Shown: piece after piece, positions 27,250-35,224 of the stretch
How positions within the stretch are numbered: the stretch's first letter is position 1
How the letters are laid out: every line of letters begins with the position of its first letter
Assembly: GCF_000425785.1 (NCBI RefSeq)
Contig: NZ_KE384450.1
Location: forward strand, 1 to 64,000
Direction: 5' to 3'
Source of the DNA: Pseudomonas taiwanensis DSM 21245
GTDB taxonomy: Bacteria; Pseudomonadota; Gammaproteobacteria; Pseudomonadales; Pseudomonadaceae
Length of the DNA stretch: 64,000 nt
Program-made: the position numbers and the translations under genes
Notes under the pieces: generated by a model
Database searches by the model: none
What the model saw: the letters and a program-made list of their open reading frames with translations, nothing else
Told to the model about the DNA's origin: nothing

Positions 27250-27427
27250 GCCTTTCTCGCCTTGATACGGGCCCGTTCAGGGGCCGACTACTGAACACGA
27301 AACTCATCTTAGGTTATCGGTCTGGCAGGGAGGGCCAGTAGTGCAGGTTTAAGAACTATTAAGGTTCGGCTCAGGACTTTGTCATGCTCCGGGCGCGAGA
27401 CTTTCTCCATTGAACAGGAGAGTCGCC

Positions 27428-27793
27428 ATGCACCCGGACCCTTGCCCTCCCGGCGCCCTGACCCCCGCCCGCCTGCATCAGGCCAAGGAGCTGATGCTGC
27501 GCAGCTCGTTGTCGATCATCGAGATTGCCGGGGTGTGCAACCTCACCCGCAGTCACTTCTCGCGCGCCTTCAAGGTCACCACGGGTCTCTCGCCCCAGGC
27601 ATGGCGTTTGCTGGCGCGGATGGAAAAGGCCAAGCGCCTGCTGGCCACCGAGGCGCCGATCACCCATGTGAGCCTGGAGTGCGGTTTTTGCGATCAGGCC
27701 CACTTCACCCGTGCATTCAGCCGTCTGGTCGGACAACCGCCCAAAGCCTGGCGTCAGGCAGCCAAGGCCGAGCCCCTCGGCGCACATCCTTAA
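27428..27793 (+). CDS. Short AraC-family regulator with only the DNA-binding domain
   Basis: A 121-residue protein that is almost entirely an AraC double helix-turn-helix (about 15-112), with LTRSHFSRAFKVTTGLSPQAW and then CGFCDQAHFTRAFSRLVGQPP. There is no sensing domain, as in SoxS and MarA, so activity would be set by its own expression level. The ATG at 27428 has an AGGAG ribosome site; an upstream TTG at 27410 is less likely. It lies 74 bp before a cysteine hydrolase gene in the same direction, which is its most likely local target. Confidence 0.82.
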   Translation: MHPDPCPPGALTPARLHQAKELMLRSSLSIIEIAGVCNLTRSHFSRAFKVTTGLSPQAWRLLARMEKAKRLLATEAPITHVSLECGFCDQAHFTRAFSRLVGQPPKAWRQAAKAEPLGAHP

Positions 27794-27867: not shown

Positions 27868-28494
27868 ATGAGCCAACCAGACTACAAGCGCCTGAACAAA
27901 GACGACGCAGTCGTACTGCTGGTCGACCACCAGACCGGCCTGATCTCGCTGGTGCAGGATTTTTCCCCCAACGAGTTCAAGAACAATGTGCTGGCCCTGG
28001 GCGATCTGGCCAAGTTCTTCGGCTTGCCAACCATCCTCACCACCAGCTTCGAGCAAGGCCCTAACGGCCCGCTGGTGCCAGAGCTCAAGGAAATGTTCCC
28101 GGATGCTCCCTACATCGCACGTCCGGGGCAGATCAATGCCTGGGACAACGAAGACTTCGTCAAGGCGATCAAGGCGACCGGCCGCAAGCAACTGATCATC
28201 GCGGGTGTAGTGACTGACGTCTGCGTGGCGTTCCCGACCCTGTCGGCGCTGGCCGAGGGCTTCGAGGTGTTCGTGGTGACCGACGCCTCGGGCACCTTCA
28301 ACGAAACCGTGCAGCAGGCTGCTTGGGTACGCATGACCGAGGCGGGCGCGCAGATGATGAACTGGTTCTCGGTGGCCTGTGAGCTGCACCGTGACTGGCG
28401 CAACGATATCGAAGGCCTGGGTAACCTGCTGTCGCAGCGTATTCCCAACTACCGCAACCTGATGAACAGCTATGCGGCCCTGAGCGCCCGCTGA
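27868..28494 (+). CDS. YcaC-like cysteine hydrolase of the isochorismatase fold
   Basis: A 208-residue enzyme. The catalytic triad can be placed at D20 (LLVDHQTG), R85 (PYIARPG) and C119 (VVTDVCVAF), one residue offset from D19/R84/C118 known for E. coli YcaC. The Arg in place of the usual Lys marks the YcaC branch, whose natural substrate is unknown. The ribosome site (AAGGAG) is strong. It ends 28 bp from the convergent end of the giant sensor kinase and follows a small AraC gene, so it is a candidate output of either regulator. Confidence 0.88.
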   Translation: MSQPDYKRLNKDDAVVLLVDHQTGLISLVQDFSPNEFKNNVLALGDLAKFFGLPTILTTSFEQGPNGPLVPELKEMFPDAPYIARPGQINAWDNEDFVKAIKATGRKQLIIAGVVTDVCVAFPTLSALAEGFEVFVVTDASGTFNETVQQAAWVRMTEAGAQMMNWFSVACELHRDWRNDIEGLGNLLSQRIPNYRNLMNSYAALSAR

Positions 28495-28522: not shown

Positions 28523-31500
28523 CTACGCGAGGGGAGGCTGGATCGGTACGCTGAATCTGATCCGGCATCCCCCCAGCTCCGACACCAAAGCTTGCAAGCG
28601 CCCGCCGTGGGCCTGCACCACTGAATTGCAGATCGCCAGCCCCATGCCCAATCCACCCGACTTGGACGTGTAGAAAGCCCCGAACACACGCTCCCGTTCT
28701 TCTGGCGCTATGCCTGGGCCGTTGTCATCCACGCAGATTTCCACCGTATCGCCCACCACTGTCGAGACAATGCGTAGCACGCCGTCACTGCGGTAACCCG
28801 CCAGGGCTTCCAGGGCATTGGTGATCAGGTTGTACACCAATTGTTGCAACTGCACCGGATCTGCCATGACGCTCACTGCCGCGTGCAATTGGGTACTCAC
28901 CTGCACCCCACACTTGAGGGCATCGGCGGAGGTCAGGCGGACCACTTCAACGACTAGCTCATCGAGATTCATGGCCTTGCGCTGCATCGGTGACTGTTTG
29001 GCCAACGAGCGCAACGCCTGGACGATGTTCGCGGCCCGCTCGCTGTCAGCACGGATGTCTTCCAGGCCGGCGATGGCTTCGGCCAGGTCAGGCTCACCGC
29101 GCTTGAGCCAACGAAGGCTGGCCGCGGCGTTGGAGGCTATGCCCAGCAGCGGTTGGCTGATTTCGTGGGCAATGGACGCCGACAGTTCGTTCATCACCTG
29201 CAGGTGCGCGCTGCGGGCCAGTTCGGCGCGCGACCGACGCAGTTCGGCTTCCATCTGGGCGCGGGCCTGATTGTCCTCGGCCAGGCGTGTATAGAACTTG
29301 GCGGTCTGCAGCGACACCGCCGCCTGTGAGGCGAGGATTTCCAGCATGGCCAGACGCTGGCTGCCGAACAGGTTGGGCACCAGACGGTTTTCCAGGTAGA
29401 CCAGGCCGATCAGCACGCCCTGGATCACCAGGGGCAGGCACAGCACGGATCGCGCGCCGCGGGCCTGAAGCTCCGGGCGAAAGGCTTCCGGGCAATCGTT
29501 CGCTGCGTCGTTGAGCGTCAAGGGCTTCTTGGTACGCATGGTGGCATTGATGATCGACAGTGGCGCCTGGGTCCTGAACGTCTGGCAGTCATCCAGCCGG
29601 ACATGCAGGCCCGCGTCGTCGATATAGGACAGTGCTGCCATCTGGAACTCGGCACCGCTGACGATCAGCAGGGCACCATGGTCGGCACCGGAATGCTGGG
29701 TCAGGTGGCCCATCAGGGTTTCGATCAGCCCTTCGAGCAGCACTTCTTCGGACAGCGCTCGCGCGGCTTCGATGCCCACTTCCAGGTCCAGCCGGGCCTG
29801 GCTGGAGGCGCGGTAGGTTTCCTGCACCGGTTGAGTTCGCAGGAATGGGTGCAAGGTCTCCAACTGGCGGACCTTGCCTGTCGCACCCCAAATGTGGAAG
29901 CAGTCGCGTGCAAGTCGCAGGTGCAGGTTGGCACCGGAGATCAGGCCGCTGGGGATGCACACTTCGGCCAACTGTTCGTGGGCGAGCGCCTGTTCGTGAA
30001 TGAAGCCGGCGGCAGTGGCGGCGATCTGGGCCTGGTCGAAGCAGCGTATGGCTGCCAGGCCGTCACCGTTAAGCTTGGCGATGACGCCTTCGATCAACAA
30101 CAGCTTGTTACGGAACGTGATGGGGTTGAACTCGGCCCATTGCGCGAAGCGCTCGCGCAGTTCGTCCAAGGTCTTGCGTTTCATCTCGGGTGTGCCAGGC
30201 GCTTCTGGGCTGCCCAGCGCCAGACCGCGAAACAGCTGGTAGTCGGCCAGGTTGATATGCGCCGGGGCAGCCCAGGCATGTGTTCCGGCTTCGTCCAGGC
30301 TTACGATCGCCTGGCGTATATCGCCCAGGTAGAACGCGGACATACCGTTGAACAGCGCCTGGAAGAACCGCGTCGTTCGGGAGGTGCCGAGTTCGTGCGT
30401 GAGGGTCGCTGTCGTGCCTGACGTCAAGCCACTGCGGCAAGGTTCGGCAGTGCTCATGTTGGCAACGAAGTGTTGTTGCGCCAGGAGGATGCGTTCGATA
30501 TCCCGATAGCCGTAACGGCGCACGGTGTCGAGGCCCTGTTCTACCTCGGCAGCGACTGTTTGCAGATGGTGGCCCATGAACAGCGAATCCGACACCAGGT
30601 GGTTGCAGGCATAGCAGGCCATGGCCAGGTCGCCGCTCAGGCGCGCCGAATCGATGGCTTCGAGTGCGGTGCGTCGGGCGAACTCCATCGGGGCGGTCCA
30701 GGCACTGACTTGGTCCAGCGCGAGCAGGGCGCTGGTCAGGTCGGCCTCGAACCCCTGTCGCTCGATCAACTTGAGCGCGGCCAGGCAGTAGGCGTGCCCA
30801 TCATGATAGGCGGCGAAGCGTTCGGCATTCATGACCCCGAACCAGGCCAGCCCATAAGTGCTGCCAGGGGCCACGCCATATGCCAGGGTCAGCTCCATGA
30901 TCTTGGCCAGGTGCAGGCAGCACAGGTCATCCTCCACGAAGAACGACGAAGAGAGCGTCGCCAGCAGTTCTATCGCGACGATCGCGTGCTCGGCTTCGGC
31001 CTTGGGCAGCGATTCGAGGCAGTGGCGACCTTGCTGCTCGATCAGGCCGCGTATCCGTGCATATTCGCTCTCGACCATGTGCCTATCGTTGCCGCGTGCC
31101 AGCGAGATACCCAGCAGACCAAGGCCTGTCAGGGCTGCATCGATGGCGGTTTCATAGTCGGAACGCAAAGTGTGCAACCGTGCCTCCAGCCGGTAGGCGC
31201 GGGCGTGCAGCAGGGGTGTGCTGGCGCGTTGTCGGCATTGGGCGATGTGTGCTTCGGCTTCGGGCATGCGCGACATCAGCATGTCGCACTCCGCCGCCAG
31301 GGCGGCGAAGGTGAAGGCCTTGGCCCTGTACGTTGCTGATTCGCAGCTTTGCCTCAGCAGGGCTTCACCGGCTGCCAGGTAGCTGGCGGCTTGCGCGTAT
31401 GAGGCGTCATCGCGGGCCCGAAGCGCGGCGTCCTCCAGCATCGTCAGGAACGTTGAGTATTCATCTGCTTCGAAGGCCTGCAGGCTGGCGCGTTGCACCT

Positions 31501-33619
31501 GGTTGGCGATATCGAGCACGGCATTGTGCAGGTCGTCCTGCCAAACCTCGCGCATGGCCTTGGCGATACGTGCATGTTGCGCAGCTCGTTCGCACTCTGG
31601 GGTCAGTTCGTAGGCAGCTTGCATGACCCGGTCATGGGCGAAGCACAGGCCTTTCTGGCTGGGCAGCAGAAAGCCCGCGTCGACCAGTGCCTTTAGCCGT
31701 TCACCGAGACGGGGTACGCCGCAAGGCAGCGTCTTTTCAAGCAAGCGCTCGTCGCAACGGCCGCCTGCAGCACTGGCAAGGCGCAGCACATCGCGTTGGG
31801 CAACCGGCAGGCGTGTCAGGCGATCGACCATCAGGTCGGCGACGTTGTCGGCGTAGCGATGCTGCGACACGGCCTGTAAGGACCACGTCCAGCGCATGGT
31901 CTGGGTGTCGAAGGTGAGCAGGCCATCTTCGACCATGACCTGCAGGATCTGGTTGATGAAGAACGGGTTGCCGGCGGTCTTGGCGTGCACCAGTCGTGCG
32001 ACCTGTATCGCCTCTTCGGGCGGCACATGGTAGCGCTCGCCGATCAGATCCGACACCGCCGCAACGGAGATCGGGCGTAGCTCGATGGTCGTGATGCGCA
32101 CTTCCTCGGGGCGAGTCGGTAGGGCATGGGCGGGTGCTGGATCGTTGCGCCGGGCGAGGATCAACAACAGGCTGTCGGGCGGCTGCGCGAGCAGTTCTGC
32201 TAAAAGGTGCAGGGTTGCGCTATCGGCCCACTGCGCATCATCGAAAAACAGCACCAAAGGCTGGCCGGGCCGGCTGAACACCCCTAGAAACTCGACCACC
32301 GCCCGCAGCTCTTTCTGCATCGCAAGGCGGGTGGGTTTTTCCGGCAATTCCGCCATGGGCCCGATGATCAATTGCAGGTCAGGGGCGAGCTTGCCCAGCA
32401 GCCGTCCGCGTCCCTTGAGGCGACGCAGGATCTTGTGTCGCAAGGAAGCCAGGTCTTCGCTGTTCTTGGCCAGCAGCTGCGTGGCCAACGAACCCAGTAT
32501 GTCCAGCCACGGCGCATAAGGCGCGCCTTGTTCCAGGCAGGTGCACTTGCCAGATGCCCAATACCCCTCGGCGTAAGTCTTCAGTGCGGCATGGACCAGG
32601 CTGGACTTGCCCATGCCGGTGGCACCGTTGACGAACAGCACTTGGGGCTTGCTGTCCCGGCGCAGGGCCCTGAACAGTAGGCCGATGGTTTTCAGCTCGG
32701 CCGTGCGTCCATGAAGTCGCTCGCGGGTGGGTGATATCGGTTCGGCGCAGCCAGGCGTGAAGTGATCGAGGGGCTCTTTGGCTGGGTAATGTCGGCGGCA
32801 ATGGGCAAGGTCGATCGCCAGCGCCCGTGCACTCTGGTAGCGGGCATCGGGTTCCTTGGCCAGCGCCTTGTTCAGCACTTGGCTAAGTGCCCGTGGCACC
32901 TTGGCGTCGACTTCGCAGGCCGTTCTGGGCTGCACGCCAGCATGCAGTTGGCGCCAGTGCGACATGTCACGGCCTAGCAGAGGCAGTTCGCCCAGCAGCA
33001 GCTGGTAGAGGATTGCGCCCAAGGCATAGATGTCGCTGCGCCGGTCGCTGACGCTGCCATGGGGGCAGACCTGCTCTGGGGCGAGGTAAGCCCAACTGCC
33101 TACCGGTGTCTGCTGTTCGCCGACCAGCTCCGGTGGATCGGCATGGAAGCCGCCGATCTTCACGCCCAGGTCGTGCTGGACGAACACATGCTGAGGTTGC
33201 AGGGCACCGTGCAGCACGTTGCGCTCGTGGGCCTGAGCCAAGGCCGTGGCGGCGTTGGTCGCCACGTCGAGGAACGTCGATAGCGTGATCGGGCCAAGCT
33301 CCGCAAGGTCATTGATCGAGCGACCTGCCGGATAGATCAGCAACGGGCCTTCTGCGGAGCGGACGAAGGCTGAGGGAAGTACAGCCCATTGCGGGTCCAG
33401 CTGAAGGCGGTAGTTGCGTTCGAGGCGCCGGCAGGCGGCAGGGGCTGCGAGGGCCGCGCGAATCGCTACCCAGGCCTGTCCCGTCGCACTGTCGCGCAGA
33501 CGGAAGTAGGTCAGGTCGCCTTCCTGCCCCAAAGGCGTGATGTCGCAGCGGCCCAGCCAGCCGTCGTCGATCGACTGGTCATAATCGATGGGCCTGTAGG
33601 CAAGGCGTTCATCGAGCAT
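28523..33619 (-). CDS. Giant multidomain sensor: degenerate Ser/Thr kinase, AAA-type NTPase, GAF and histidine kinase
   Basis: A 1698-residue soluble signalling protein. Residues ~20-275 have a Ser/Thr kinase fold, but its catalytic residues are replaced: the beta-3 Lys is Arg (VAIR 51-54), HRDLKPxN reads HGALQPQH (137-144) and DFG reads GGF (156-158). Next is a STAND/AAA-type NTPase with Walker A GATGMGKSS at 332-340 and Walker B LVLFFDD at 455-461, then a long alpha-helical TPR-like region. A GAF domain follows (~1290-1440), then a histidine kinase with H1485 in IAHEISQPL, N-box NLITNALEAL, and the G boxes DNGPGI and GLGMGLAI. It is related in layout to cyanobacterial HstK-type kinases. It is divergent from two response regulator genes that are its likely partners. 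Confidence 0.9.
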   Translation of the reverse strand: MLDERLAYRPIDYDQSIDDGWLGRCDITPLGQEGDLTYFRLRDSATGQAWVAIRAALAAPAACRRLERNYRLQLDPQWAVLPSAFVRSAEGPLLIYPAGRSINDLAELGPITLSTFLDVATNAATALAQAHERNVLHGALQPQHVFVQHDLGVKIGGFHADPPELVGEQQTPVGSWAYLAPEQVCPHGSVSDRRSDIYALGAILYQLLLGELPLLGRDMSHWRQLHAGVQPRTACEVDAKVPRALSQVLNKALAKEPDARYQSARALAIDLAHCRRHYPAKEPLDHFTPGCAEPISPTRERLHGRTAELKTIGLLFRALRRDSKPQVLFVNGATGMGKSSLVHAALKTYAEGYWASGKCTCLEQGAPYAPWLDILGSLATQLLAKNSEDLASLRHKILRRLKGRGRLLGKLAPDLQLIIGPMAELPEKPTRLAMQKELRAVVEFLGVFSRPGQPLVLFFDDAQWADSATLHLLAELLAQPPDSLLLILARRNDPAPAHALPTRPEEVRITTIELRPISVAAVSDLIGERYHVPPEEAIQVARLVHAKTAGNPFFINQILQVMVEDGLLTFDTQTMRWTWSLQAVSQHRYADNVADLMVDRLTRLPVAQRDVLRLASAAGGRCDERLLEKTLPCGVPRLGERLKALVDAGFLLPSQKGLCFAHDRVMQAAYELTPECERAAQHARIAKAMREVWQDDLHNAVLDIANQVQRASLQAFEADEYSTFLTMLEDAALRARDDASYAQAASYLAAGEALLRQSCESATYRAKAFTFAALAAECDMLMSRMPEAEAHIAQCRQRASTPLLHARAYRLEARLHTLRSDYETAIDAALTGLGLLGISLARGNDRHMVESEYARIRGLIEQQGRHCLESLPKAEAEHAIVAIELLATLSSSFFVEDDLCCLHLAKIMELTLAYGVAPGSTYGLAWFGVMNAERFAAYHDGHAYCLAALKLIERQGFEADLTSALLALDQVSAWTAPMEFARRTALEAIDSARLSGDLAMACYACNHLVSDSLFMGHHLQTVAAEVEQGLDTVRRYGYRDIERILLAQQHFVANMSTAEPCRSGLTSGTTATLTHELGTSRTTRFFQALFNGMSAFYLGDIRQAIVSLDEAGTHAWAAPAHINLADYQLFRGLALGSPEAPGTPEMKRKTLDELRERFAQWAEFNPITFRNKLLLIEGVIAKLNGDGLAAIRCFDQAQIAATAAGFIHEQALAHEQLAEVCIPSGLISGANLHLRLARDCFHIWGATGKVRQLETLHPFLRTQPVQETYRASSQARLDLEVGIEAARALSEEVLLEGLIETLMGHLTQHSGADHGALLIVSGAEFQMAALSYIDDAGLHVRLDDCQTFRTQAPLSIINATMRTKKPLTLNDAANDCPEAFRPELQARGARSVLCLPLVIQGVLIGLVYLENRLVPNLFGSQRLAMLEILASQAAVSLQTAKFYTRLAEDNQARAQMEAELRRSRAELARSAHLQVMNELSASIAHEISQPLLGIASNAAASLRWLKRGEPDLAEAIAGLEDIRADSERAANIVQALRSLAKQSPMQRKAMNLDELVVEVVRLTSADALKCGVQVSTQLHAAVSVMADPVQLQQLVYNLITNALEALAGYRSDGVLRIVSTVVGDTVEICVDDNGPGIAPEERERVFGAFYTSKSGGLGMGLAICNSVVQAHGGRLQALVSELGGCRIRFSVPIQPPLA

Positions 33620-33863
33620 AAAGCACCCCTGCTAGCGACATCCAAGGGCGCGAGTATACGCAGCGCGAATGCCCCGCACGCTCTGGCTGGCCGGTTTGGC
33701 AGGATCGGGAACCATCTTGACCGTAATCGGCCCCAGGGTGGCGGCGCTGGCTTGTATAGTCCAAAGGCCAACCTATCCCTCGGGATAATTGTATGAATGT
33801 GGATGCTGGCCTAGATTGCACGGGGCTGCGCAACCGCCCGGACTCGCGAGATTCGAAAAGATC
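33620..33863. promoter_or_regulatory. Divergent promoter region of the sensor and regulator genes
   Basis: A 244-bp gap between the giant sensor gene (minus) and the response regulator gene (plus). Sequence near 33750-33760 reads TTGTATAGTCC, a possible plus-strand -10 without an obvious -35. CCCTCGGGATAATTG follows at about 33777-33791. The sensor gene has a CAGGGGTG ribosome site. Nothing else is recognisable. Confidence 0.3.
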
Positions 33864-34856
33864 ATGATCCGTATAGGCAATGCCCAGGTGTCGCTGGAGC
33901 GGCGGGAAGTGTTTCTGGACGGCAAACCGCTGCCCTTGGGTGGGCGTGCGTTCGAGGTGCTGGCGACGCTGATCCGGGCCAACGGCCGGGTGGTGTGCAA
34001 GGACGAGCTGTTCAGCCAGGTCTGGGCCGGCACAGTGGTGGAAGACAACAACCTGCAGGTGCAGATTTCGCTGCTGCGCAAAGCCTTTGGTGACCGGGGC
34101 CTGATCCAGACCGTTCCCCGCAGGGGTTACCGGCTGGCGGCGCAAGTGTCCAGCGATGTGGCTGCGTTGGCGCCAGGCAGATCGCCGCTTTCAGCCACTG
34201 CTGGGCCGCCGCAGGACGACATCGAAGCCGTGATGGTGCTGGTGGTCGATGACGACCCGTCGGTACGCACGGCCCTGGGCCGGCTGTTCCGTGCCGAGAA
34301 TATTCCTCATCGGTTGTACGCCTCGGCGGAGGAACTGCTCGAACAACCCTGCGACACACCCTACGCCTGCCTGTTGCTGGACATGAACCTGCCGGCTGCC
34401 AGCGGCCTGGACGTGCAGCAGGCGCTGCGCAGGCTCGATGTTCCCTGGCCGGTCGTGTTCATGACCGGTTACGGCACCATCCCTATGACCGTTCAGGCCA
34501 TGCGTGCGGGTGCTGTTGAATTTCTCACCAAGCCGTTCGATGAGTACGAGCTGCTGACGCTGCTGGGGTCGGTACGTGCGCGCGCCTTGGCGCAGGGGCG
34601 CAAATGGTGGGATACGCGTCAGGTCCGGGAAAAGTACCGGCGCCTGACCCAGCGCGAGCGGCAAGTGTTCTCGCTGGTGGTAGGGGGGCTGACGCACAAA
34701 CAGATCGCCAAGACCATCGGTACCAGTGAAGTGACGACCAAGGTTCACAAGAAGAACATCATGAACAAGATGCAGTCGCGCTCGCTGGTCGAGCTGGTCG
34801 CCATGCACCATGTCATCGATGCCGGCCCCCGCCTTGAAGACCAGGGCGTTGCATGA
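33864..34856 (+). CDS. Response regulator with OmpR-type winged helix, receiver and LuxR HTH
   Basis: A 330-residue protein with three domains in an uncommon order. Residues ~1-95 form a Trans_reg_C winged helix (ending LIQTVPRRGYRLAAQV), ~125-245 a FixJ-like receiver with phospho-acceptor D173 (LLLDMNLP) and the Lys of LTKPFDE, and ~265-325 a LuxR/NarL helix-turn-helix (LTQRERQVFSLVVGG, then KQIAKTIGTSEVTTKVH). Two different DNA-binding domains therefore flank one receiver. The ATG at 33864 gives a clean winged-helix start; a TTG at 33789 would add 25 residues without family character. Its stop overlaps the next gene by 4 bp. The likely phosphodonor is the divergent giant kinase. Confidence 0.85.
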   Translation: MIRIGNAQVSLERREVFLDGKPLPLGGRAFEVLATLIRANGRVVCKDELFSQVWAGTVVEDNNLQVQISLLRKAFGDRGLIQTVPRRGYRLAAQVSSDVAALAPGRSPLSATAGPPQDDIEAVMVLVVDDDPSVRTALGRLFRAENIPHRLYASAEELLEQPCDTPYACLLLDMNLPAASGLDVQQALRRLDVPWPVVFMTGYGTIPMTVQAMRAGAVEFLTKPFDEYELLTLLGSVRARALAQGRKWWDTRQVREKYRRLTQRERQVFSLVVGGLTHKQIAKTIGTSEVTTKVHKKNIMNKMQSRSLVELVAMHHVIDAGPRLEDQGVA

Positions 34857-35224
34857 GCGCAACGGTATGCATCGTCGATGACGATGCTTTCGTGCGCAGA
34901 AGCCTGGCCAACCTGTTGCGTTCGGCCGGCTTCGACACCTTGCTGTTCGGGTCGGGTGCGCAGCTGCTGGCTTCGCCCCAGGCGCGTGGGGCGGGGTGTG
35001 CCTTGCTGGACTTGAGAATGCCTGGACTGACAGGTTTGCAGGTCCAGGGCGAGCTGGCCCGGTTGGGTTGGCAGCTGCCCGTGATCTGCATGTCGGCGCA
35101 TTGGGATGATGCGGCCTTGGAAGCTTCCCAGCGCAATGGCGCGGTAGCCTGCCTGGGCAAACCGTTCAATGAAGACGTACTGCTGAAGGCGGTCGAGGCT
35201 GCGTTGGCCTTGAACGTGCGTTGA
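34853..35224 (+). CDS. Stand-alone response regulator receiver
   Basis: A 123-residue single-domain receiver. Acidic pocket D10/D11 (CIVDDDAF), phospho-acceptor D53 (ALLDLRMPG) and the conserved Lys in LGKPFNED are all present, so it should be phosphorylatable. With no output domain it may act as a phosphate sink, a relay, or by binding a partner protein. ATGA overlap with the preceding regulator makes co-translation certain. It resembles the receiver half of FixJ proteins. Confidence 0.87.
   Translation: MSATVCIVDDDAFVRRSLANLLRSAGFDTLLFGSGAQLLASPQARGAGCALLDLRMPGLTGLQVQGELARLGWQLPVICMSAHWDDAALEASQRNGAVACLGKPFNEDVLLKAVEAALALNVR

Follow-up and report, generated by a model that had tools for sequence, protein, structure and literature searches.

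A Ser/Thr kinase fold lacking all six scored catalytic residues is joined to an NTPase and a motif-intact histidine kinase in Pseudomonas taiwanensis

We analysed a stretch of 64,000 nucleotides from Pseudomonas taiwanensis DSM 21245 (contig NZ_KE384450.1; hereafter the window), in which a single long gene encodes a kinase-like fold, an NTPase, a TPR-like region, a GAF domain and a histidine kinase (Table 1). The Pfam Pkinase model scored 51.1 bits against a cut-off of 31.7, and the AAA_16, GAF and HATPase_c matches were all above their own cut-offs, with HisKA (23.6 versus 26.9) and TPR_CHK1 (19.7 versus 27) falling below theirs. The Pkinase match starts late, but the N-lobe is present: a profile built from 30 family kinase domains covered both lobes of PknB, a kinase of solved structure (E 6.8e-56, with positions 13-263 of the 283 in the profile aligned). 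Modelling of residues 1-295 with AlphaFold2 as a lone sequence gave a pLDDT of 40.1 and a pTM of 0.29, with an order of strands and helices compatible with a kinase N-lobe. By simple hydropathy alone, the strongest 19-residue stretch starts at residue 1391, in the GAF domain, and the second, at residue 197 in the kinase C-lobe, barely exceeds 1.6.

Table 1. Features of the kinase gene and its two neighbouring receiver genes, in window coordinates.
Feature	Position	Strand	Basis
Whole gene, 1698 aa: pseudokinase, NTPase, TPR-like region, GAF, histidine kinase	28523..33619	-	single uninterrupted ORF, ATG to stop; Pfam
Pseudokinase domain, residues about 25-281	32777..33547	-	Pfam Pkinase 102-267; whole-fold profile match to PknB
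Beta-3 stretch AWVAIRA, residues 49-55, without Lys (VAIR = 51-54)	33455..33475	-	alignment; Lys scan
WAVLP, residues 78-82, the clade's WAxxP motif	33374..33388	-	50/57 clade rows, 0/41 outside (counted only after being noticed)
Degenerate catalytic loop HGALQPQH, residues 137-144	33188..33211	-	alignment
Degenerate DFG, G157-F158-H159	33143..33151	-	alignment
Retained APEQ, residues 180-183	33071..33082	-	APE Glu in 56/57 clade rows
AAA_16 NTPase, residues 302-487; P-loop 332-340	32159..32716	-	Pfam; motif reading
Middle region, residues 491-1290; CHK1-like TPR match at 1136-1213 below threshold	29750..32149	-	Pfam
GAF domain, residues 1295-1437	29309..29737	-	Pfam
HisKA, residues 1476-1542, phospho-acceptor H1485	28994..29194	-	Pfam below cut-off; H-box reading
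HATPase_c, residues 1587-1694	28538..28861	-	Pfam; box reading
Response regulator (Trans_reg_C, receiver, GerE/LuxR), divergent from the kinase gene; likely partner (inferred)	33789..34856	+	Pfam; neighbourhood
Single-domain receiver; likely second acceptor (inferred)	34853..35224	+	Pfam; neighbourhood

The motifs of the NTPase and of the histidine kinase are intact. The P-loop is GATGMGKSS, H1485 lies within SIAHEIS, and the N-box (NLITNALEA, 1597-1605), G1-box (DNGPGI, 1632-1637) and G2-box (GGLGMGLA, 1655-1662) follow. In the 14-member clade to which the window protein belongs, the P-loop and the H-, N-, G1- and G2-boxes were found in 14 of 14 members, and one member (L010) deviates in the Walker B stretch. 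A cruder pattern scan of the wider clade of 57 sequences recovered the H-box in 56, the N-box in 45, G1 in 48 and G2 in 43, the lower counts being uninformative because some loci are cut off ahead of the C-terminus and four clade sequences that read correctly escaped the N pattern. The regulator and the single receiver lie next to the kinase gene, divergent from it, in 14/14 nearest loci, both with their phospho-Asp.

The neighbourhood showed further regularities. In the window's regulator, two DNA-binding domains flank one receiver; in 16 of the 20 loci fetched (L101-L114, L119 and L120) it is matched without interruption, in L115 it is divided into two separate genes, and the matches of L116 and L117 have no winged helix. 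A small AraC-type gene (27410-27793, +) has a relative in 17 of the 20 fetched 20-kb stretches around family members. The isochorismatase-family hydrolase encoded at 27868-28494 (+) is 97.6-99.5% identical in all nine closest loci (L101-L109), compared with only 67-74% identity for the kinase protein in the same loci. Hydrolase genes near family members also occur in Oscillatoria and Pantoea plasmids (L151, 2043-2705; L157, 4329-5021), one of them annotated YcaC of the isochorismate family.

To place the kinase fold, we aligned 112 distinct family kinase domains together with two canonical kinases encoded in the genome from which the window comes. The sequences were drawn from genomes of the genus (149), the class (321) and the phylum (349) and from 14 plasmid records. 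At genus level, 44 of 149 genomes gave a match at E 1e-25; identity was at least 44% in 15 of the 44, and one of the 15 (G034) was broken; both of its family copies (L114 and L132) are split between frames, through breakage or assembly error. The class and phylum searches, which found matches in 19/321 and 38/349 genomes, relied on a profile made from proteins of the window's genus, with E 1e-60 as the threshold, and therefore favour near relatives. A further 148 genomes of the family were searched separately, outside the tree.

Six positions were scored: the beta-3 Lys, the alpha-C Glu, the HRD Asp, the loop Lys, the loop Asn and the DFG Asp. Both control kinases read K-E-D-K-N-D at these positions and the window protein reads A-N-A-Q-H-G. 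Each of the six residues was kept in 0 of the 14 aligned members of the window's clade, and the original prediction of a degenerate kinase fold in a protein whose P-loop and histidine kinase boxes are intact was borne out with its motifs as read. The loss of the DFG Asp, also part of that prediction, stands, although its placement at GGF 156-158 has to be moved by one residue: the register set by the two canonical kinases and by the LTGFG of relatives puts the Asp column on G157 and the degenerate motif on GFH 157-159. Similarly, VAIR has indeed lost the beta-3 Lys, whose column falls on A52, with R54 two residues further on; the register there is uncertain, which is harmless to the pseudokinase claim because residues 1-153 of the window protein contain no Lys.

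Catalytic residues could also have moved elsewhere in the domain, as in WNK kinases, in which the catalytic Lys is relocated. Across residues 20-100 of the 14 clade members the sole Lys was at position 64 in one sequence, and in the 57-member clade no column before the catalytic loop carried Lys in more than 17 sequences. A replacement acid sought in residues 125-175 of the 14 members was found at best at positions acidic in only 10 of 14. At the level of sequence, the search for displaced catalytic residues thus agreed with the original prediction. These results argue that the kinase fold is a pseudokinase, presumably without kinase activity.

We then determined how far this loss extends in the family. 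For the tree we used 98 sequences, omitting the other 14 of the 112 for poor coverage, and excluded the kinase columns to keep the trait itself from influencing the topology. The window protein sits in a clade of 57 sequences (support 100) and, within it, in its own subclade of 14 (support 99). The outer joins are unsure because of several long outer branches, sequences of odd composition, and a quick method with SH-aLRT support only. The beta-3 Lys and the DFG Asp were kept in none of the 57 clade members, compared with 36 of the 41 sequences outside for the former (three of the 41 have no residue there) and 34 of 41 for the latter. The other positions were less uniform: the alpha-C Glu was kept in 42/57 inside versus 32/41 outside, the HRD Asp in 41/57 versus 30/41, the loop Lys in 38/57 versus 7/41 (21 of the 41 have Asn) and the loop Asn in 16/57 versus 34/41. 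The HRD Asp is also gone in L080, the sister of the 14-member clade, and in L077 on another branch, whose residue pattern is shared by L136, outside the tree. The tree requires at least three changes for the beta-3 Lys, eight for the DFG Asp and ten for the HRD Asp, and losses are therefore also scattered among sequences beyond the clade, two examples being Fischerella L147 and Flammeovirga L152. In another genus of the same family, L160 repeats the window pattern when read by eye, and L180-L183, from the same family as L160, keep the beta-3 Lys, HRD Asp, loop Asn and DFG Asp by the same reading.

The family thus forms a graded series, from outer sequences with nearly all residues, through middle ones with the HRD Asp only, to inner ones with none. 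This suggests that the ATP- and metal-binding residues were lost early in the 57-member clade and that the loss became fixed, with the window's 14-member clade having lost the catalytic-loop Asp, Lys and Asn in addition. The original prediction had treated the window protein as a lone departure from dual-activity relatives, which did not hold up: neither the beta-3 Lys nor the DFG Asp is present in any of the 57 clade members, and the contrast lies with the outer sequences, cyanobacterial ones among them. Conservation scored at the catalytic positions across the clade, as had been proposed, gave 0/14 at each in the window's own clade, and the catalytic decay is older than first thought.

We next compared the window protein with known systems. 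A contig scan with the whole protein returned three loci in which the similarity (27-28% identity) was confined to histidine kinase or ATPase stretches, and the named comparisons are therefore based on plasmid records. WP_181727154.1, from a Pseudomonas putida plasmid and annotated 'trifunctional serine/threonine-protein kinase/ATP-binding protein/sensor histidine kinase', has the window's layout, falls in the same 57-member clade and is 32.6% identical over residues 10-468. It reads VEDKHG, keeping the HRD Asp and loop Lys, with Gly for the DFG Asp, His for the loop Asn and no beta-3 Lys. A literature search found no paper on proteins described by 'trifunctional serine' and 'sensor histidine kinase'. 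According to the available text of O'Boyle et al. 2025 (PMC12599244), CP1 kinases are mainly cyanobacterial and proteobacterial, about 40% of them are called pseudokinases, and these pseudokinases, which often bear GAF or PAS and lack a transmembrane region, invariably come fused to a COG3899 ATPase. The window protein resembles them in combining a kinase fold, a predicted ATPase and a GAF domain with degraded motifs (6/6 lost); the ATPase was compared by the AAA_16 model, above its Pfam cut-off. We conclude that it is a well-supported member of this published kind, as far as the available text defines it. The same text contains no histidine kinase output, regulator pair, order of loss, clade-wide fixed loss, WAxxP motif or ATPase-less relatives, and the present analysis adds to it the clade-wide loss, its order and the clade-only N-lobe motif WAxxP.

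ATPase-less relatives were found among our sequences: unlike the CP1 pseudokinases described in that text, L133-L136 have no AAA_16. In L133 and L135, GAF and histidine kinase follow immediately after the kinase fold, L134 has the same layout with no HATPase found, and L136 is missing only the NTPase. L133, L134 and L135 are short relatives of 627-771 aa without NTPase or TPR region, found in three of 149 genus genomes; they show the layout but not the fully dead form, because they keep the HRD Asp and loop Lys.

The window chain also resembles the cyanobacterial dual kinases (HstK type, cbSTKIII), which combine a Ser/Thr kinase fold, GAF and histidine kinase and, in the available portions of the reports, keep the catalytic-loop Asp and Asn and mostly the DFG Asp (PMC1262709, PMC2176072). 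The window protein has none of these three residues, whereas the cyanobacterial sequences in our alignment mostly read KEDNND. An HstK-type dual kinase would be expected to carry catalytic residues in both kinase domains; in the window protein the Ser/Thr half lacks all six and the histidine half is intact. The order S_TKc, AAA-16, GAF and histidine kinase is likewise that of Chk1, Mak2 and Mak3, and the TPR_CHK1 model matches the window protein below its cut-off, but those proteins are fungal and, as the accessible text describes them, hybrid kinases with a receiver domain (PMC9069115, PMC5383687). In Candida, joint removal of S_TKc and AAA-16 from Chk1 resembled full deletion on mucosa, according to the text available (PMC9069115). 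By analogy, this would fit an input role of the kinase fold, though the two domains were removed together.

Because the fold, the P-loop and the histidine kinase persist despite the loss of the catalytic residues, we interpret the kinase fold as a module for input or docking. Our main reading, to which we give a probability of about 0.7, is that the fold is kept for its shape and that, with the NTPase/TPR-like region and GAF, it would set the activity of the C-terminal histidine kinase. The histidine kinase would phosphorylate the adjoining winged-helix/receiver/LuxR regulator, and the single receiver could be a second acceptor or a phosphate sink. The sensor or scaffold role suggested by the original prediction fits this evidence; that the kinase fold is coupled to the histidine kinase, and the latter to the neighbouring receivers, is what we infer. 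A decaying relic without function would account for the loss of six of six catalytic residues, but is the least probable reading. Median dN/dS, taken from 36 pairwise comparisons, not independent of one another, among the nine closest sequences, was as low as 0.094 for the N-lobe and 0.145 for the C-lobe, with 0.193 for the NTPase, 0.214 for the middle region, 0.099 for GAF, 0.053 for the HisKA part and 0.142 for the HATPase part. Moreover, 76 of 265 positions are invariant across the 14 sequences, and the APE Glu, the alpha-F Asp and one C-lobe Arg are each kept in 56 of 57 clade members. HGAL[QR]P is invariant in the ten closest sequences, RSDIYALG (residues 194-201) can be read in the window protein, and WAxxP, counted only after being noticed, follows alpha-C in 50/57 clade members and 0/41 outside. 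Together, this shows purifying selection on the kinase-fold domain, and not decay. It is also very unlikely, albeit slightly less so, that the domain is an active kinase of atypical kind or uses its fold for some other ATP-dependent transfer. Atypical activity has a precedent in plant ILK1, which has GFG for DFG and, in the available text, is active with Mn preferred over Mg (PMC9403797), and the question is more open for the 41 of 57 clade members that keep the HRD Asp; in the window's clade, however, neither the HRD Asp nor the loop Lys survives in any of the 14 members, and nothing conserved nearby, whether Lys or an acidic residue, is left to take their place.

Two further readings keep the domain non-catalytic, and we consider each of them improbable to the same degree, though well ahead of the active kinase. 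The pocket might bind ATP or another nucleotide through arginines, free of metal, and report to the histidine kinase, which would be a special case of the main reading. All 14 clade members share R54, R65, R68 and R87, and metal-independent ATP binding via arginines has been proposed from AlphaFold3 models for the related DLHK family in the available text of PMC12599244, but the residues that would hold nucleotide and metal (beta-3 Lys, loop Asn, DFG Asp) are absent. Alternatively, the kinase fold could act on the NTPase instead of the histidine kinase, which speaks against our main reading: the pseudokinase would control the NTPase/TPR-like module, for example its assembly, and the histidine kinase would respond only via that module. 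The two domains adjoin, the P-loop is kept in all 14 members, and the CP1 pseudokinases are all joined to an ATPase in the available account (PMC12599244); against this, L133, L135 and L136 have the kinase fold without the NTPase, and L010, one of the 14, departs in Walker B. A more detailed scenario, which we hold less likely than not, is the following: a Ser/Thr kinase may have become the dedicated non-catalytic sensor half through early fixed residue loss, after which the N-lobe WAxxP motif might have come to bind a ligand or the histidine kinase, so that the fused pseudokinase gates the latter. Our literature searches, in sources available in part, found no report of a fused Ser/Thr pseudokinase gating a histidine kinase.

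For annotation, the Ser/Thr kinase part of the database label 'trifunctional kinase' is very probably wrong for the window's clade and doubtful for all 57 sequences. The graded series within this family offers a test bed for the role of a kinase fold in a signalling protein once catalysis is lost.
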